Shown here: positions 49,079 through 57,477 of the stretch, in pieces
Layout: every line of letters starts with the position of its first letter
How positions within the stretch are numbered: position 1 is the first letter of the stretch
Assembly (NCBI GenBank): GCA_019637395.1
Contig: JAHBVR010000023.1
Span: forward strand, 1 to 64,000
DNA: 64,000 nucleotides
Direction: 5' to 3'
Source of the DNA: Vulcanimicrobiota bacterium
GTDB taxonomy: Bacteria; Vulcanimicrobiota; Xenobia; Xenobiales; JADMJV01
The notes under the pieces: model-generated
The model's input: only the letters and a program-made list of their open reading frames with translations
What the model was told of the DNA's origin: nothing
Databases searched by the model: none
Made by a program: the position numbers and the translations under genes

Positions 49079-49659
49079 TGAGGAGTCACTAGAGTCTCGA
49101 GTTTATCACACCAGAAAAGTTCACAGGCTCCCGTGCCGGTATCGCTGCGCACCAGCGAGCTGGACCAGGTCCAGCCGTCCGGGGCTGCCACATTGACCAG
49201 GTAGCCGTGGGCCTGAATCAGATCATGCACGCGCACGGCCTTGAGGATGGCGGCCACCTGGTCGTTGGCCGGAATAAAGTGGGTATTGGCCGAATGCTGG
49301 ATGATGGTGTCTTTGTCCGGCACTTCTCCCTTGATTTCCCACTGATAGTAGCGTTCCACGTGCTGCATGCTGATCTGACTGAGATAGCCGCTGTTGGACA
49401 TCTCGCCCCAGCCGAGGCTCAGGTCCTCGGGAGAGAGTTCGGCTTCGCGCCCGCTGGAAAATTTCTCCAACAGGAGCACACGCGCGATCAGGCTGTATTC
49501 CGCCTGTGGCGTGAGCAAATAGCCTTTGTGGCTCCAGCCTTTCATTTTGCCGGGCAGGGTTTTTTGCACAGGCTCGGCTTTGGCGATGATTTGCTGCGGC
49601 CAGGGATCAGAGCGCCCGCAGCCCAGGCACAAGAAGGCGAGCACACAAAGTTTCTTCAC
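49075..49659 (-). CDS. Lipoprotein of unknown function, last gene of the ligase operon
   Basis: A 194-residue protein from GTG 49659, overlapping the permease stop by 4 nt (GTGA). The start KKLCVLAFLCLGC is a lipoprotein signal with lipobox LCLGC. The body (WPQQIIAKAEPVQKTLPGKM, then LLTPQAEYSLIARVLLLEKF, LSPEDLSLGWGEMSN) has no recognised family; late residues LVRSDTGTGACELFW lead to the stop. Probably periplasmic face. Its stop overlaps cysE convergently. Confidence 0.72.
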   Translation of the reverse strand: MKKLCVLAFLCLGCGRSDPWPQQIIAKAEPVQKTLPGKMKGWSHKGYLLTPQAEYSLIARVLLLEKFSSGREAELSPEDLSLGWGEMSNSGYLSQISMQHVERYYQWEIKGEVPDKDTIIQHSANTHFIPANDQVAAILKAVRVHDLIQAHGYLVNVAAPDGWTWSSSLVRSDTGTGACELFWCDKLETLVTPH

Positions 49660-51107
49660 GACAGCTCCATTCCCACCACCGGAGGACCCTGGAAGCGGTG
49701 CTTTTCGAAAATCTGCCAGATGAAGCCGGTGATGAGCAGAAAACCAAAAATCAAGTAAAGCGCCAGTTCGTTGGGCGGTTGGACCCCGATCAAAATCAAG
49801 CCGCTGCAGCCGATGGCCGCCACGGTGGCGGCCACTCGGAAAAAGGGACCCAGATCCCACGGGCCCATCTTGGTCCAACTGCGCCGATAGGCGTAGAGAC
49901 CCAGGGTGATCGGTATCACATAAGAAATGTAGAGGAAAATCGTGCACACCACGGCGATGGTGGAATAGACCTTGGAGTAGCTGGCGAAGCCCACGCTCAG
50001 GAGGGCCACCGTCCAGATGGCCTTGACCGGAGTCAGGTAACGAGAATCGACCTGCCGCAATTGGCTGGACAGCGGCAGGCCTCCGTCACGGGCAAAAGCA
50101 TAAACCATGCGGCTGGAAGAAGTCACCGTGGCCAGTCCGCACAGGTACTGGGCGAGGCCGCATCCCAGATAGAGCAGGGCGCACAGGGCTTGGGGCAAGA
50201 CTTTACCCATGGTGAAGAAGAAAACCTGATCTCCCTGATGGATGCCTGCGCGCAAATCGGGAATGGCCATGACGATGCAGCTCAGCATGATCCAGCCGAA
50301 AATCGAGGAGGAAACCACGGCGAAGACGATCGCCTTGGGCACGGCTAGCGAGGCACCCCGGGTCTCCTCGGCGGTATGAGCCGAAGCATCAAAGCCGGTG
50401 ATGGTATAGGCGGGCAGTTGCAGACCCAAAAGGAAGAGAATCAGCATGTTCGGCTCGACCGGCCAGACTCTGCCGCCTGCCTCTCCGCTAAAATTGGTAA
50501 ACGTGAACAGCCGGCTGAAATCGTGACCCGCCGAGTAATAGATCAAGGAGGCGACCAGCACCAGGGTCACCGCCATGATCAAATACCCGGAGATATCGAT
50601 CAGGAAGCTGGTGATGCGGATGCCCAGATGATTGAGCAGGGCTTGCGACAGCGTGATCAGCATGACCACCACGACCTGGGTGTTGGGATCGGATTCAAAG
50701 CCCCAGATGGGACCGAGAGAGCCGACCGCAAAAGTATAAATGCCGACGTTGATGGCCGAGAGCACTGTAATCAGACCGGCCAGGTTGAACCAGGCCGTCA
50801 GCCAGCCCCAGCCTCGCCCCCCCAGAATGGAAGCCCAGTGATAAAGCCCTCCGGCGGTGGGGAAGGCGGAAGCGATCTGGCCCATGGCCAGGGCGGTGCA
50901 TACCGAAAACATGCAGGCGAAAGGCCAGCCGATGCCGATCGAGGCCCCGCCTACCGACGAGAGTCCCAGATGCAGCGAGGTCAACCCTCCGGCCAGAATA
51001 CAAATGACCGAAAAAGACATGGCGAAGTTCGAAAAAGCGCTCATGCGCCGGGACAACTCCTGGGTATAGCCCAGGCTCTCTAAGTGGGCCTCGTCAGACT
51101 GGCTCAC
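49656..51107 (-). CDS. APC-superfamily amino acid/amine permease
   Basis: A 483-residue polytopic protein with about 12 membrane segments. SNFAMSFSVICILAGGLTSL, then PTAGGLYHWASIL, the Gly-rich substrate site in helix 1 and the conserved TAEETRGASLAVPKAI loop after helix 6 mark the amino acid/choline/GABA transporter branch. Starts 4 nt inside the end of the iron alcohol dehydrogenase gene. In this operon it probably imports the substrate of the ligase. Confidence 0.9.
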   Translation of the reverse strand: MSQSDEAHLESLGYTQELSRRMSAFSNFAMSFSVICILAGGLTSLHLGLSSVGGASIGIGWPFACMFSVCTALAMGQIASAFPTAGGLYHWASILGGRGWGWLTAWFNLAGLITVLSAINVGIYTFAVGSLGPIWGFESDPNTQVVVVMLITLSQALLNHLGIRITSFLIDISGYLIMAVTLVLVASLIYYSAGHDFSRLFTFTNFSGEAGGRVWPVEPNMLILFLLGLQLPAYTITGFDASAHTAEETRGASLAVPKAIVFAVVSSSIFGWIMLSCIVMAIPDLRAGIHQGDQVFFFTMGKVLPQALCALLYLGCGLAQYLCGLATVTSSSRMVYAFARDGGLPLSSQLRQVDSRYLTPVKAIWTVALLSVGFASYSKVYSTIAVVCTIFLYISYVIPITLGLYAYRRSWTKMGPWDLGPFFRVAATVAAIGCSGLILIGVQPPNELALYLIFGFLLITGFIWQIFEKHRFQGPPVVGMELS

Positions 51108-52237
51108 CCCAGAACACCAAGGTATGCGTTGTCCAGCAACTGGCGGCAGTTCTCCACCGTCAGCTCAATCGGATTGGTGGCCGCGGTCGGATCGGCCACG
51201 GCTTTCTCGGCAATTTCCTGCATCCGGTCGCCGGGAAGGCCCAGCTCCTGAAGAGTTTGGGGAATGCCCAGGGCTTTGCGCAGATCCAGCACCCACTCCA
51301 ACACGGAAGGCACGCCCAGGTAGCGGGCCAACCGCTCCAGACGCTCATAAATGGCCGGAGAATTGAAGGCCAGCACGTAAGGCATGACCACCGCGTTGGT
51401 CAGTCCGTGGTGGGTGTCAAAGAGAGCGCCGATGGGGTGGGCCAGTGAATGCATGGCTCCCAGACCTTTCTGAAAAGCCACCGCACCCATGGTGGAGGCG
51501 GCCATCATGTCCGCGCGGGCCTGGCGGTCACTGCCATCCTCATAGGCTTTCACCAGCGAGCGGGCTACCAGCCGGCAACCTTCCAGGGCGATGCCGTCCG
51601 CCATAGGGTGATGGAAGGGAGAGAACCAGGCCTCCAAATTGTGAGAGAGCGCATCCATACCGACGGCCGCCGTGATTTTGGGGGGCAGACCGAGGGTGGT
51701 GTCGGGATCGGCCAGCACCAGGCCGGGTAACATTCTGGCGTGAAAGATGATCCGTTTGGTCTGAGTGGACTCGTCGGTAATCACGGAACAACGCCCGACC
51801 TCACTGCCCGTCCCGGCGGTGGTGGGCACGGCCACCACCGGAGCCATGCCGGCTTGGTTGACCCGCTTGTGGTTGTCGCCCAGATCCTCGAAATCCCACA
51901 GCGGTCGTTCCTGGCCCACCATTAAGGCCACCGCCTTACCGACGTCCAGGGCGCTGCCGCCCCCCATGGCGATCACCCCATCATGGTTCCCCTGACGATA
52001 GGCTTCCACGCCGGCACTCACGTTGGCCCCGACCGGGTTGGGGCGGACGTCGCAAAAAAGCCCAAAATGGGGATGCTTCTCCAAGACTCCCGTCACCAGA
52101 GGCAAGGTGGCCAGGCCAGCGTCGGTAACCAACAGGGGCTTTTTCATGCCCAGACTTAAACAACACTCATCCAATTCGGCCAATCGGCCGCAGCCAAAGC
52201 GAATGGACGTAGGATAATTCCAGTTGACGCTGTGCAT
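51104..52237 (-). CDS. Iron-containing alcohol dehydrogenase
   Basis: A 377-residue type III ADH. ATG 52237 is chosen because MHSVNWNYPTSIRFGCG begins the Rossmann part. NAD(P) motif MGGGSALDVGKAVAL, TTAGTGSEV, metal ligands in AVGMDALSHNLEAW and GLGAMHSLAHPIGALFDTHH. It oxidises or reduces alcohols or hydroxy acids, and the substrate cannot be told. The start follows the ligase stop by 2 nt and the stop overlaps the permease by 4 nt. Confidence 0.92.
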   Translation of the reverse strand: MHSVNWNYPTSIRFGCGRLAELDECCLSLGMKKPLLVTDAGLATLPLVTGVLEKHPHFGLFCDVRPNPVGANVSAGVEAYRQGNHDGVIAMGGGSALDVGKAVALMVGQERPLWDFEDLGDNHKRVNQAGMAPVVAVPTTAGTGSEVGRCSVITDESTQTKRIIFHARMLPGLVLADPDTTLGLPPKITAAVGMDALSHNLEAWFSPFHHPMADGIALEGCRLVARSLVKAYEDGSDRQARADMMAASTMGAVAFQKGLGAMHSLAHPIGALFDTHHGLTNAVVMPYVLAFNSPAIYERLERLARYLGVPSVLEWVLDLRKALGIPQTLQELGLPGDRMQEIAEKAVADPTAATNPIELTVENCRQLLDNAYLGVLG

Positions 52238-52239
52238 GC

Positions 52240-53598
52240 TTAAATGATCTCGAAGTAGCGGCGCAGTTCCCAGTCGGTGATGGTCTTGCGCAACTCGCGT
52301 TCTTCCCATTCCCGAGTGGCCGCGAAGTGATCCACAAAGGCGTCGCCAAAGAGCTCGCGCGCTCGCTGGCTGGCTTTCAGATTCTGGGCCGCGCTCCACA
52401 GGGTGTGGGGGAGTTCCAGCTCGGGAGGCTGCTGCTGGGTGTAAGCGTTACCCTGGATGGGCTGGTTGGGCTCCAATTTTTCTTCGATTCCCCATAATCC
52501 AGACGCCAGCGCCGCGGCCAATGCCAGGTACGGGTTGGCGTCGGCGCCGGCCACGCGGTATTCCAACCGTTGCGACTTGGCCGAGCCGGGAATGGCGCGC
52601 AACGCGCAAGTGCGGTTCTCCACGCCCCAGGTGGCGTTGGTGGGAGCCCAGTAGCCGGGCACCAGGCGTGAATAGGAGTTGACGGTGGAGGCCACCATGG
52701 CCAGCACCTGCGGCATGTAATGCTGACATCCGGCGGTAAAGTGCCTCATCAAGTCACTCATGCCGTGAGGTTTGCCTTCCTGAAAAAAGACGCCTTGACC
52801 GTCTTTCTGCAGCGACATATGAAGGTGGCCACTCTGCCCGGGATAATCGTTGGACCACTTGGCCATGAAAGTGGCCATCAAACTGTTGCGCTGGGCGCAT
52901 ACCTTGGCGAAAGTCTTGAAAAGAGCGGCTTTGTCGGCGGAGGCCAAGGACCCGTCGACGCCGATGGCCACTTCCAGCACTCCAGGACCGGTTTCGTTGT
53001 GCAGTCCTTCAATGGGGAAATCCATGACTTCGCCCAGGCGCAGTAACTCTTGGTAAAACTCGTTCTGCACCGAGTTGCGCAGCACCGAATAGCCGAAGTT
53101 ACCGGGCGTCCACGGCTCCAAATTACGGTAGCCCTTTGCCTGAGCGGATTTGGGCGTTTCGCTGAAGACGAAAAACTCGTATTCGACGGCCGAGAAGGGC
53201 TCAAAACCCAGCGAGCGGCTGTATTCGATGACCCGACGCAGCATGGCCCGCGGACACAGGGCCTCGGAGGCTCCCGAGAACTCGGCCAGGAAGAAGAGAC
53301 CGCCCTCCTCATACATCAGGTCGCGGCAGCTTTCCGGCAGCAATCGCACGGTGGCGTCGGGATAGCCCGTATGCCAGCCCGTATGAGTCACGTTATCGTA
53401 CAACTGGTCGTTGGAATCCCAGCCCAGCACCACGTCGCAGAAATTGAACCCGCCCTCCAGGGCGGCGAAGAACTTGGCTCTGGACATATACTTGCCGCGC
53501 ATGACGCCGTCGAGGTCGAAGACTCCCACCTTGACGTGGGAAAGACCGCGTTCCTCGACAATTTTGCGCGCTTGCTCAACGCTAAAGATACCCGACAT
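52240..53598 (-). CDS. Glutamine-synthetase-family ligase (gamma-glutamyl-amine-type)
   Basis: A 452-residue ATP-grasp-like GS fold protein from ATG 53598 with GGGAGGA upstream. N-terminal DLDGVMRGKYMSRAKFFAAL, the catalytic VEYEFFVF (Glu), ETGPGVLEVAI, SGHLHMSLQKDG (His), PTNATWGVENRTCALRAIPG and RLEYRVAGADANPYLALAAA. The active-site residues look intact. The N-terminal DLDGVxRGK pattern is that of the GlnA3/FluG/PuuA-like branch rather than of GlnA. With a permease and ADH it may gamma-glutamylate an amine or related compound. Canonical glutamine synthesis is less likely. Confidence 0.85.
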   Translation of the reverse strand: MSGIFSVEQARKIVEERGLSHVKVGVFDLDGVMRGKYMSRAKFFAALEGGFNFCDVVLGWDSNDQLYDNVTHTGWHTGYPDATVRLLPESCRDLMYEEGGLFFLAEFSGASEALCPRAMLRRVIEYSRSLGFEPFSAVEYEFFVFSETPKSAQAKGYRNLEPWTPGNFGYSVLRNSVQNEFYQELLRLGEVMDFPIEGLHNETGPGVLEVAIGVDGSLASADKAALFKTFAKVCAQRNSLMATFMAKWSNDYPGQSGHLHMSLQKDGQGVFFQEGKPHGMSDLMRHFTAGCQHYMPQVLAMVASTVNSYSRLVPGYWAPTNATWGVENRTCALRAIPGSAKSQRLEYRVAGADANPYLALAAALASGLWGIEEKLEPNQPIQGNAYTQQQPPELELPHTLWSAAQNLKASQRARELFGDAFVDHFAATREWEERELRKTITDWELRRYFEII

Positions 53599-53611: not shown

Positions 53612-54751
53612 TTATTCCGCTTCGATGGCGGGGCTTTCGATTTCACTCCAGCGGTGGTTCAAGGCTACCGCCGTGGTCAGATGGGCGACGGCGCCGCCCA
53701 GCGTGTACATATCCAGGCGCGGCATGCCCAACCAGCAACGCGGCCGGCCTCGATCCATGGTCTGGCTATCCAGGGCCGGACTGGCGTAATCCAATTGCAA
53801 TTCGTAATATTGGGGCCGTTCGCCGGGATGAGGGTCGTGCTCCTGACATTGCAGGTGGGGAAATGGATAGGGAACCGGCGGCTCCAGATGCAAACAACTG
53901 GTTTCCAACAACCGGCGCGTCCACAGTCCCAGCGGCTCCAGGTAGGTGTCCGGCGTGACCACGGCTTCCACCCAGCCGTCCTGCATGGTCAGCAGTTGGC
54001 GGATGACAGCATAGCGCAGCGTGGCGTTGTCCCAATTGAAGCCTTTTTCCAGGTTGCGCACCTGCGAACGAGCACCTTCGATCAAGCTGCTGGCCTCAAA
54101 TCCCGAGACATACAGAGGGAACAGACCAAAACCACTGAAAATCGGCGCCAGATAAGCGCGCTCGGTCACCGCCAGATGCTTGACCGGTATTTGCAGGTGA
54201 CTGCCTATGGGACGCGCCGACAGGGCCACCACCCGGCGCGACAGCTCATTCTCGGAGTAGCGCTCCCTGATCCAGTTGAGGGACGGCAGCACTCCTCGCT
54301 CCCAGAGCAAGTCACCCGGAACCCAGCCTAAAATCACCACCCCCACGCGCGAGCCGACTGCCTCCAGGGCGGGCAGCAACTGGTGTTCCCAGGCTTTACT
54401 GCGGGGAATGTGGAGTCGAGGTCCGCGCCCTCCCGGTCCGTCAAAAAGTTCCTGGAGGCGGGCCAATTCCAGTGTCTGTGAAGAGCCGACGAACAGGATG
54501 TCGTCGCAATTGGCGCGCAGCTCTAGAGCCATGCTGCGCAGTGGTTCGAGATCGGCTTCACGAAATTGATTGAGCAGGTCGAGGACGGGCAGGTTGCGCC
54601 GCATTTCCTCCGCCTTGCCGGTCCAATTGGACAACTGGCCCTTCCAGTGCTCGATTCCTTCAGCGGGTAGCGAATTCCACAGTGCCTCGATTTCGCAGTG
54701 TAATAGGCCGTGGCGATTTTCCTGAGACGGTTCGGTGGAAGCTTGCGACAA
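53612..54751 (-). CDS. Degenerate phosphoglucose-isomerase-fold (SIS) protein
   Basis: A 379-residue protein with a PGI layout but eroded catalytic motifs. The SIS domain has DDILFVGSSQTLELARL where PGI has GIGGSSLG. GFGLFPLYVSGFEASSLIEGA matches the PGI region after DxGGRxSV. A late LDMYTLGGAVAHLTTAVALN resembles the PGI LGaLiaLYE segment. The following NpFDQPGVExGK motif with the catalytic Lys is missing, because the protein ends soon after. It is probably a non-catalytic sugar-phosphate-binding or structural protein. First gene of the operon, 13 nt before the ligase start. Confidence 0.7.
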   Translation of the reverse strand: MSQASTEPSQENRHGLLHCEIEALWNSLPAEGIEHWKGQLSNWTGKAEEMRRNLPVLDLLNQFREADLEPLRSMALELRANCDDILFVGSSQTLELARLQELFDGPGGRGPRLHIPRSKAWEHQLLPALEAVGSRVGVVILGWVPGDLLWERGVLPSLNWIRERYSENELSRRVVALSARPIGSHLQIPVKHLAVTERAYLAPIFSGFGLFPLYVSGFEASSLIEGARSQVRNLEKGFNWDNATLRYAVIRQLLTMQDGWVEAVVTPDTYLEPLGLWTRRLLETSCLHLEPPVPYPFPHLQCQEHDPHPGERPQYYELQLDYASPALDSQTMDRGRPRCWLGMPRLDMYTLGGAVAHLTTAVALNHRWSEIESPAIEAE

Positions 54752-54803
54752 AGTGGACCCCTTAGAAGCTGTTGACGTTCAGCGGGATTTCGGCGCCATT
54801 ACA

Positions 54804-54827
54804 CCCTTTGCTCCTATGGAGCAAGGG
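54804..54827. other. Inverted repeat between HD-GYP and PGI-like genes
   Basis: CCCTTTGCTCC (54804-54814) pairs with GGAGCAAGGG (54818-54827) with one bulged base and a 3-nt loop. No T-run on either strand, so not a standard terminator. It lies 52 bp upstream of the PGI-like start and could affect its expression. Confidence 0.4.
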
Positions 54828-54866
54828 GCGCAAAACGGAACTGCAGAGGCGAACCGTCAGCAGCTC

Positions 54867-56654
54867 CTAGGCGGTTTGGGTGCGGGGTTCCACGATATCT
54901 CCAACTTTGCCTTCCTGAATCAGGGCCAGAAACACGTCGGTGGCGTCGGGGTCAAACTGGCTGCCGCGCCATTTCTGCAGCTCGCTTACAGCCGCCTCCA
55001 CCGGCATGCCGGCTCGGTAGGGTCGATCAGAGGTCATCGCATCAAAACAGTCGGCCACGCACATGATGCGAGCCTGCAAAGGAATGCCCCGTCCGCTCAG
55101 CCCGGCCGGGTAACCGCGCCCATCAAAGCGCTCATGATGGTGCAGCATATAAGGCAAAATCGTTTGAAAAGCGCGCACCGGCTGCATGATCTCCACGCCG
55201 TACTCGGGGTGGCGCTTCATTTCCTCGAATTCATCATCGGTCAGCTTGCCCGGTTTGTGCAAGATAGCGTCGCGGATGCGGATTTTGCCGATGTCGTGAA
55301 GTAAGCTGGCATAGCGGAGTTCTTCCAGTTGTTCGGCCTCGAAGCCCAATTTTTCCGCGATCAGCACGGAAAAGCGGGTGACCCTCTCGGAGTGGCCGCT
55401 GGTGTAGGGGTCACGGGCATCGATGGCGTTCGCCAGGGCCCGGATGGAGTGGACGAAGAGCAAGCGCAGTTCGCTGTGCAGGCCGGCCTTGGAAATCGAG
55501 AGGGCGGCCACGTTGGCGAAGCGTGAGGCCAGCGACAGCTCGTCGGCGGAAAAGTCCCCACCGCTCTTTTTTTGACGCACGTTGAGCACACCCAGCACCT
55601 GGTCATCCTTAAGCAGTGGCACCGATAGGGCCGAGCCGGATTCGTCGGCGTCCCGGGCGGGATAGAGAATGGGTTTCTTTTGTTCAGCCACCTTGCCGGA
55701 GATGCGTTCGCCCAGTTTGACCCGGGTTTCGGCCACTACTTCCTCGGTCAGACCTCGGGCCATTTTGATGGTCAAAGTTTGCTGATCGGGTTCGAGCAGC
55801 ATCACCGAGGCATTTTCGGCTTCCAGTTGCTGCAAGGTTTCGTCCAGCAATTGCTCCAGCACGTCTTCCAGCGAGACGGTCCGGTTCAGCGATTCGCTCA
55901 ATTGCTGCAAAGCGCGCAACTCGCTGAGCTGGCGTTCTACCTGGCCGAACAATTGAGCATTGTGAATGGCGTTGGCGGCGTGGCCGGCCAGAATGCTGAG
56001 AGCCTGGACCTCGGTATCGCTGAACTGGGCGTTGCGTTCGCCGGTGAGCGTGAGCGAGCCGACGACGCGTTGCTGGGAGCGCAGCGGAATGCCCAGCACG
56101 CAAGCCGTCTCCGTGTCGCCTGGAGTGCGCCGCAGCCGGCCCTCCTGGCGCAGCCAGCTCTGCAGGTCTTCGCCGGCGTCCACGTGGGTGGTGGTCAAGA
56201 TGGGCGCCTCGCTGCCGTTCTGCTGTAACATCTTCAGTTCGGAGTGAACCTGGTCGTGCATGACCAGCGTGGCGCCGGTCGCTTTGACCAGTTGGCGGGC
56301 AAAAGTCAGGATACGCTCCAGCAAGTCATTGAGCTGAATGGTTTCATTCAGGGTGGTGGCCAGTTCGTAAAGACGCCGCAGCGTGTCCAGGTTGGCTTGT
56401 TGCTCCAGATAGCGCTGAAAGATTTGCTCGAGGGCGCGCACCGTGCTCAGGCCGACTGCCGCCAGACCGCCGGGGTTGCCCAAGATACGCAGGGTGCCGA
56501 TGCGGCCGGGAGAGATGGTGACGGGAAAATCTTGCTCGGAAGCGTTCAGGGGGCGGGCGTCCAGGAGAACGCAAGTGTAACCAGAGCCTTGCTCAATCGC
56601 GGCAAAAAGGCTTTCGACCAGGGAACTGCAGGCTTCTACGGGCGAGGGATGCAA
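54867..56654 (-). CDS. GAF-GAF-HD-GYP c-di-GMP phosphodiesterase
   Basis: A 595-residue protein. Two GAF-like sensor domains (about 95-235 and 255-400, with VLGIPLRSQQRVVGSLTL and SVPLLKDDQVLGVLNV) precede the HD-GYP domain. It has RDPYTSGHSERVTRFS, SLLHDIGKIRIRD (HD) and HHERFDGRGYPAGLSG (GYP), so it should degrade c-di-GMP. The TTG start at 56654 has no good ribosome binding site, but no better upstream start is seen. It shares a divergent AT-rich promoter region with the CRP/FNR gene. Confidence 0.9.
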   Translation of the reverse strand: MHPSPVEACSSLVESLFAAIEQGSGYTCVLLDARPLNASEQDFPVTISPGRIGTLRILGNPGGLAAVGLSTVRALEQIFQRYLEQQANLDTLRRLYELATTLNETIQLNDLLERILTFARQLVKATGATLVMHDQVHSELKMLQQNGSEAPILTTTHVDAGEDLQSWLRQEGRLRRTPGDTETACVLGIPLRSQQRVVGSLTLTGERNAQFSDTEVQALSILAGHAANAIHNAQLFGQVERQLSELRALQQLSESLNRTVSLEDVLEQLLDETLQQLEAENASVMLLEPDQQTLTIKMARGLTEEVVAETRVKLGERISGKVAEQKKPILYPARDADESGSALSVPLLKDDQVLGVLNVRQKKSGGDFSADELSLASRFANVAALSISKAGLHSELRLLFVHSIRALANAIDARDPYTSGHSERVTRFSVLIAEKLGFEAEQLEELRYASLLHDIGKIRIRDAILHKPGKLTDDEFEEMKRHPEYGVEIMQPVRAFQTILPYMLHHHERFDGRGYPAGLSGRGIPLQARIMCVADCFDAMTSDRPYRAGMPVEAAVSELQKWRGSQFDPDATDVFLALIQEGKVGDIVEPRTQTA

Positions 56655-56772: not shown

Positions 56773-57477
56773 ATGAACGATACCGCTGCTCTGCTGCGCC
56801 AGGTTCCGCTCTTCTCCGGACTGGAACCGGAAGATTTGGAGACGCTGGCCAAATATCTCTACCACAAGAGCGTAACACGCTCTCAGGTACTCTTCCAGCA
56901 GGGGGACAAAGGTGACGAATTTTTGATTGTCACCGAAGGTTCCGTCAAAGTGGAACTGGTCAACCCGGACGGCAAAGAACTGACGCTGGCCATCTTGAAG
57001 CCCTTTCAGTTTTTGGGAGAGCTGGCCCTGCTCGACGATTTTCCGCGCTCGGCCAACGTGATCGCCCTGGAAGACAGCCAGTTGCTGGCTCTCAATAAAC
57101 GTGACTTCCTTCATGTGGTCAGTCAATACCCGCGTATCTACGGGCCCATTACCCGGCAACTGACTCGTCGAGTGCGCGTGCTGACCGATGACATCGCCAG
57201 TATGGCCTTCCTGGACAGCTTCACGCGCACCGCGCGCAAGCTGGTGAATCTGGCCCAGGACCTGGGCGTGCCCGGGTCGGGTCCGTCGGTGACCATTCCC
57301 CAGCCGCTGACGCATCAAGAGCTGGCCAACCTGGTGGGAGCCACTCGCGAAACCGTTTCCAAAGTGCTCAGCGATATGCGCTCGCGCCGGCTGATCTCGG
57401 TGGAAGGCCACAGGATCACTATCCTCAACAAGGACCAGTTCGCTGAAATCGCCAGTCTGCCAAGCTTCAGTTTATAG
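56773..57477 (+). CDS. CRP/FNR-family transcriptional regulator
   Basis: A 234-residue regulator. A cNMP-binding barrel (residues about 12-120: VLFQQGDKGDEFLIVTEGSV, then FLGELALLDDFPRSANV) is followed by the dimer helix and a winged helix with LTHQELANLVGATRETVSKV. The Fe-S cysteines of FNR are absent, so it is CRP-like. The phosphate cassette GELALLDDFPRSA resembles cAMP-binding proteins. Cyanophycinase lies 55 nt downstream and may be a target. Confidence 0.92.
   Translation: MNDTAALLRQVPLFSGLEPEDLETLAKYLYHKSVTRSQVLFQQGDKGDEFLIVTEGSVKVELVNPDGKELTLAILKPFQFLGELALLDDFPRSANVIALEDSQLLALNKRDFLHVVSQYPRIYGPITRQLTRRVRVLTDDIASMAFLDSFTRTARKLVNLAQDLGVPGSGPSVTIPQPLTHQELANLVGATRETVSKVLSDMRSRRLISVEGHRITILNKDQFAEIASLPSFSL

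Follow-up and report, generated by a model that had tools for sequence, protein, structure and literature searches.

Organization of the locus

The window, a 64,000-nt stretch of Vulcanimicrobiota DNA (contig JAHBVR010000023.1, positions 1 to 64,000), carries on its minus strand a run of genes in the order HD-GYP protein, phosphoglucose isomerase (PGI)-like protein, glutamine-synthetase-like (GS-like) ligase, iron-containing alcohol dehydrogenase (Fe-ADH), and APC permease, with a Crp/Fnr-type gene divergent from the run. The features are as follows.

56773-57477, plus strand: Crp/Fnr-type regulator, divergent from the HD-GYP gene (Pfam; arrangement recurs across genomes)
54867-56654, minus strand: GAF-GAF-HD-GYP protein, 595 aa, putative c-di-GMP phosphodiesterase (Pfam; orthology and position; motifs)
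54758-54866, no strand: insert of ~104 nt with imperfect inverted-repeat ends and a strong hairpin, between the HD-GYP stop and the PGI-like start
53612-54751, minus strand: PGI-derived pseudoenzyme, 379 aa, TTG start (profile homology, fold matches, residue alignment, dN/dS)
52240-53598, minus strand: GS-like ligase (neighbor only in the window's genus)
51104-52234, minus strand: Fe-ADH (neighbor only in the window's genus)
49656-51107, minus strand: APC-family amino acid/amine permease (neighbor only in the window's genus)

The TTG start of the PGI-like reading frame has AGGGG 7 nt upstream, and the GS-like gene, which follows after a 13-nt gap, starts at about 53598 with GGAGG upstream. The HD-GYP protein retains its motifs intact in the window, namely, HSERV (HD), HDIGKIRI (HDxGK), and HHERFDGRGYPAGL (HHExxDGxGYP), with HHERFDGRGYP present, and it is therefore likely, judging from these motifs, to hydrolyze c-di-GMP. 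A weak PocR-like N-terminal region is found in orthologues of this protein and has been lost in the window's genus.

The PGI-like protein is a full-length homologue of Bacillus-type PGI

As a single sequence, the 379-aa protein matched no Pfam family; against NCBIfam it matched glucose-6-phosphate isomerase PRK14097 (E = 5.4e-8) over residues 205 to 283 only, far under the cut-off, and against PDB entry 1b0z it gave an E value of 0.023. A family profile, A1, built from the alignment of 10 orthologues, matched the Bacillus stearothermophilus PGI 1b0z with an E value of 1.4e-39 over profile positions 46 to 400, and the likeness to PGI is therefore not a matter of chance. The AF2 model was of moderate confidence (mean pLDDT of 70; pTM of 0.72), and its best Foldseek matches in the PDB were all PGIs, with Staphylococcus aureus 3ff1 giving an E value of 7e-12 and a TM score of 0.71. 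Profile match and fold matches extend across the two SIS subdomains of PGI; the protein is a full-length homologue of Bacillus-type PGI, and the PGI/SIS fold put forward in the original prediction is borne out. The protein resembles these enzymes (1b0z and 3ff1) in fold and in full-length profile homology and differs from them in lacking both phosphate loops and the Lys420, Glu285, and Arg202 positions, in its shorter C terminus, and in the location of its gene next to an HD-GYP gene.

Loss of the active site

A residue-by-residue comparison, in PDB-chain numbering, set the family against 1b0z together with seven of the phylum's own PGIs of Bacillus type at the positions marked by the motifs GGR[YF]S, ESxGK, H, and QPGVExxK, the established catalytic positions of PGI. 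Phosphate loop 1, GIGGSYLG in 1b0z, reads GSSQTLEL in the window protein, and loop 2, SKSGTTTE in 1b0z (SKSGTT/SKTFTT type), reads GWVPGDLL; both loops are replaced in all 10 members, with the exception that G006 retains GGT in loop 1. The helix that carries the catalytic Lys, K420 (QPGVEAYK motif), is absent from all 10 members; the window protein ends before it. Replacement of the GIGGSSLG site and absence of the C-terminal Lys motif had both been noticed from the letters alone; the alignment upholds the two observations, and from them the protein is predicted to be noncatalytic as a PGI.

The remaining positions have been lost less uniformly. The R202 position of the GGRYS motif is gapped in the window protein, with R198 lying ~4 residues upstream if the region is aligned without a gap; this active-site Arg is gapped or replaced in the window's genus and in G010, G011, and G013 and is kept in G005 and G006. 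Since G005 and G006 retain the Arg and G006 also retains GGT, the members, as judged from the alignment, differ in how far the loss of the active site has gone. The catalytic Glu, E285 in 1b0z, corresponds to T284 in the window protein, with E283 one residue earlier, and only in the window's genus does H306 of 1b0z have an aligned His, H308, the alignment being weak in this region. The possibility that catalytic residues persist at shifted positions thus stands insofar as E283 and H308 are candidates within the genus, but there is neither a Lys nor a phosphate loop to accompany them, and on this alignment the PGI site is not restored. Sequencing or frame errors hiding the motifs were ruled out, since the sequence shows this pattern in five species alike.

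In the alignment of the ten orthologues, neither a His nor a Lys is invariant, and the cleft residues lack family-wide conservation. The residues that have become newly invariant, ELRAN and EGARS-x2-R, are not fixed in the enzymes. The function suggested at the outset, that of a sugar-phosphate sensor, appears unlikely as far as the PGI site is concerned, because the phosphate loops have been lost in every member, apart from the GGT of G006.

Selection, descent, and distribution

Within the genus, the dN/dS of the PGI-like gene is 0.04 to 0.07, similar to that of neighboring genes; synonymous sites are near saturation in distant pairs, so that the safest value is the 0.039 obtained for the closest pair. 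The reading frame is open in all near-full copies, and length is constant within the genus. The gene is under strong purifying selection and is not decaying; a decaying PGI pseudogene, which the lost active site and the rapid divergence between genera might have suggested, is therefore ruled out for practical purposes by the low dN/dS, the open frames, and the constant length.

Among 149 genomes of the phylum, the family is confined to the window's order (G000 to G006, G010, G011, and G013, with a fragment in G012), and a profile search of the phylum genomes found it to be absent from the small genomes G007 to G009 and G014. Sequences diverge quickly between genera, with identities of 26 to 32%. 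In a tree, the PGI-like proteins form one group (support, 97/96) apart from the enzymes, with long branches and unsure placement within the group; near-full family copies score at least 470 bits against A1, whereas no canonical PGI of the phylum scores above 167 bits.

A separate PGI is present in every genome of the window's genus, and the copies from five species, one from each, have all of the catalytic and phosphate residues. A complete PGI at G000:C4:154163-155470 rules out the notion that the PGI-like protein is the sole PGI of its genome with shifted residues. This housekeeping PGI of the order (L030) is itself of an unusual ~525-aa type that scores ~170 bits against Pfam PGI in a split match, and G001, G005, and G015 have a classic long PGI in addition or instead. 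The canonical PGIs closest to the family are Bacillus-type enzymes from other orders of the phylum, and the window's order uses a different PGI; we infer from these sequences that an ancestral Bacillus-type PGI may have been displaced and then re-tasked.

Conserved gene order

The gene immediately upstream of the PGI-like gene is a GAF-GAF-HD-GYP orthologue in all nine of the readable genomes, which represent three genera of one order. Outside the window's genus, this was seen in G006, G010, G011, and G013, and in each of the four the upstream gene is the best genome-wide match to the window's HD-GYP protein; HD_5 domain matches number 9 to 27 per genome in the five genomes counted. In a fourth genus (G005), the HD-GYP gene, with Crp divergent, ends 65 nt from the end of one contig, and the PGI-like gene is cut by the end of another, which fits the contigs joining there. 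The divergent Crp/Fnr gene is also present in G001, G003, G004, G005, G006, G010, and G011; the G013 stretch showed none, and the G002 flank is unreadable. Other neighbors change between genera, and Crp, HD-GYP, and PGI-like genes stay together.

The GS-like, Fe-ADH, and permease genes form a set that is kept throughout the window's genus where readable; they were not found beside the PGI-like gene in the other genera examined. The amine operon in which the protein had been placed is therefore peculiar to the window's genus, the GAF-GAF-HD-GYP gene being the partner conserved order-wide; with adjacency so limited, an amine-operon function is ruled out as the core role.

In three other genera, a single-copy gene for a protein of ~115 aa directly follows the PGI-like gene (G005, G006, G010, and G011). 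These proteins, identified by position, are as follows.

L047:2349-2696, minus strand: ~115-aa protein
L051:13025-13393, minus strand: ~115-aa protein
L049 and L050: ~115-aa proteins downstream of the PGI-like gene

Identity is about 60% between the G006 protein and those of G010 and G011 and 50% to that of G005. The family was found only at this position, in these four genomes; it matched no Pfam family or PDB entry and, despite a confident model (pLDDT of 84), no PDB fold at an E value of ≤0.001. The gene is absent from the window's genus, where it has been lost, and from G012 and G013.

Five genomes of the class (G008, G009, and G015 to G017) have an HD-GYP orthologue but no PGI-like gene, and the orthologues therefore do not need a PGI-like partner; for the same reason, the PGI-like gene was probably added, on this comparison of genomes, to a preexisting signaling gene. 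G015 to G017 (L112, L113, and L114) belong to a different family of the class; in them, the gene ahead of the HD-GYP orthologue encodes a MobA-like nucleotidyltransferase.

A probable signaling partner derived from a metabolic enzyme

We suggest, tentatively and with somewhat less than even confidence, that the GAF-GAF-HD-GYP protein encoded just upstream has the PGI-derived pseudoenzyme as its protein partner. That it is a signaling partner rather than an enzyme is probable, because catalytic and phosphate sites have been lost, the gene is kept by selection, and it adjoins the HD-GYP gene across the order. The linkage of the two genes is an observation and the mechanism is one that we infer; gene order is evidence of a functional link, not of physical binding. 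The transcript would run from the HD-GYP gene to the PGI-like gene and, in other genera, on to that of the ~115-aa protein, these presumably being cotranscribed, and it would start from a region common to this unit and the divergent Crp/Fnr gene. The PGI-like protein would most likely bind the HD-GYP protein and, once bound, may tune or localize the hydrolysis of c-di-GMP, serving as a fixed scaffold or else answering to a putative ligand that would no longer be a sugar phosphate in the PGI site. In the window's genus, where the module has joined the GS-like/ADH/permease set, it may help to coordinate that set. The newly fixed ELRAN and EGARS-x2-R residues, together with the lack of conserved cleft chemistry, fit binding better than catalysis or canonical sugar-phosphate sensing. 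The short spacing of the two genes in the other species of the window's genus speaks for a partner role; counting against it are the HD-GYP orthologues that occur alone, the fast divergence of the PGI-like sequence between genera, and the hairpin insert that now separates the two genes in the window strain.

The domain set and motifs of the window's HD-GYP protein are those of HD-GYP proteins with GAF inputs; what differs here is that a PGI-derived protein is co-encoded, and a literature search for HD-GYP together with phosphoglucose isomerase, covering published work outside subscription, found nothing. Two known systems offer precedents for the logic, not for membership, of such a pairing. 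GKRP is of MurQ-like lineage. It is a sugar-isomerase-like (SIS) protein that binds F1P and F6P and controls glucokinase (PMC4109836), and it is thus comparable as an SIS-type protein that controls another protein through binding; it differs in being eukaryotic, in its SIS lineage, and in keeping phosphate-ester binding, and in the present case a c-di-GMP enzyme would stand in the place of glucokinase. In the NspS-MbaA polyamine receptor of Vibrio cholerae, how active a c-di-GMP enzyme is depends on a binding protein (PMC8967002), but NspS is periplasmic and MbaA is a membrane GGDEF/EAL protein, whereas the partner here is an HD-GYP protein and both proteins are assumed to be cytoplasmic.

Both precedents would also suit a metabolite sensor, in which the old interdomain cleft would still bind a small ligand, not necessarily a sugar phosphate, and relay its occupancy to the HD-GYP protein: GKRP as an SIS-type regulator of glucokinase (PMC4109836) and NspS-MbaA as a case of a soluble binding protein controlling a c-di-GMP enzyme (PMC8967002). 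The active-site Arg kept in G005 and G006, the GGT loop of G006, and the absence from the window's HD-GYP protein of its own PocR-like sensor region point the same way; with both phosphate loops replaced in the window and most members, however, and with cleft residues that are not family conserved, we consider such a sensor unlikely, if still the strongest of the alternatives. It is less probable again that linkage reflects inheritance only, with the PGI-like protein a bystander in a stable operon that acts elsewhere, with binding to the housekeeping PGI as one example; the HD-GYP orthologues that lack a PGI-like neighbor would allow this, but Crp, HD-GYP, and PGI-like genes remained together while other neighbors changed between genera. 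A new enzyme on the PGI scaffold, perhaps one that in the window's genus acts alongside the GS-like and ADH genes, seems improbable to a greater degree: within the genus, the catalytic His has an aligned counterpart in H308, E283 is one residue off the Glu, and R198 is a nearby conserved Arg, but none of the three is common to other genera, which also lack the GS-like/ADH/permease set as neighbors, and no His or Lys is invariant family-wide.

Returning to the partner role, a larger scenario is conceivable, although we regard it as doubtful, in which a glycolytic PGI was displaced by a second PGI and demoted to a regulatory subunit of a c-di-GMP phosphodiesterase, giving an uncultured bacterial order a three-part module (HD-GYP protein, pseudo-PGI, and ~115-aa orphan) that reads metabolic state into c-di-GMP signaling. 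Catalytically dead PGIs have hardly been described; a full-text literature search for phosphoglucose isomerase and pseudoenzyme returned no paper on a dead PGI, as judged by titles and abstracts. A dead PGI kept by selection beside a c-di-GMP gene, in members with graded active-site loss, makes the route from metabolic enzyme to signaling part testable, and it offers a candidate answer to the question of how HD-GYP proteins with only GAF inputs get their signals.

The insert between the HD-GYP and PGI-like genes, with its inverted ends CTAGGAGCTGCTGACG...CGTCAACAGCTTCTAA, is present in the window strain only, the spacing between the two genes being about 9 to 12 nt in other species of the genus. 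It was rejected as a repeated element, there being only one copy in the genome; it looks like the remnant of a small mobile element and could lower the expression of the downstream genes.
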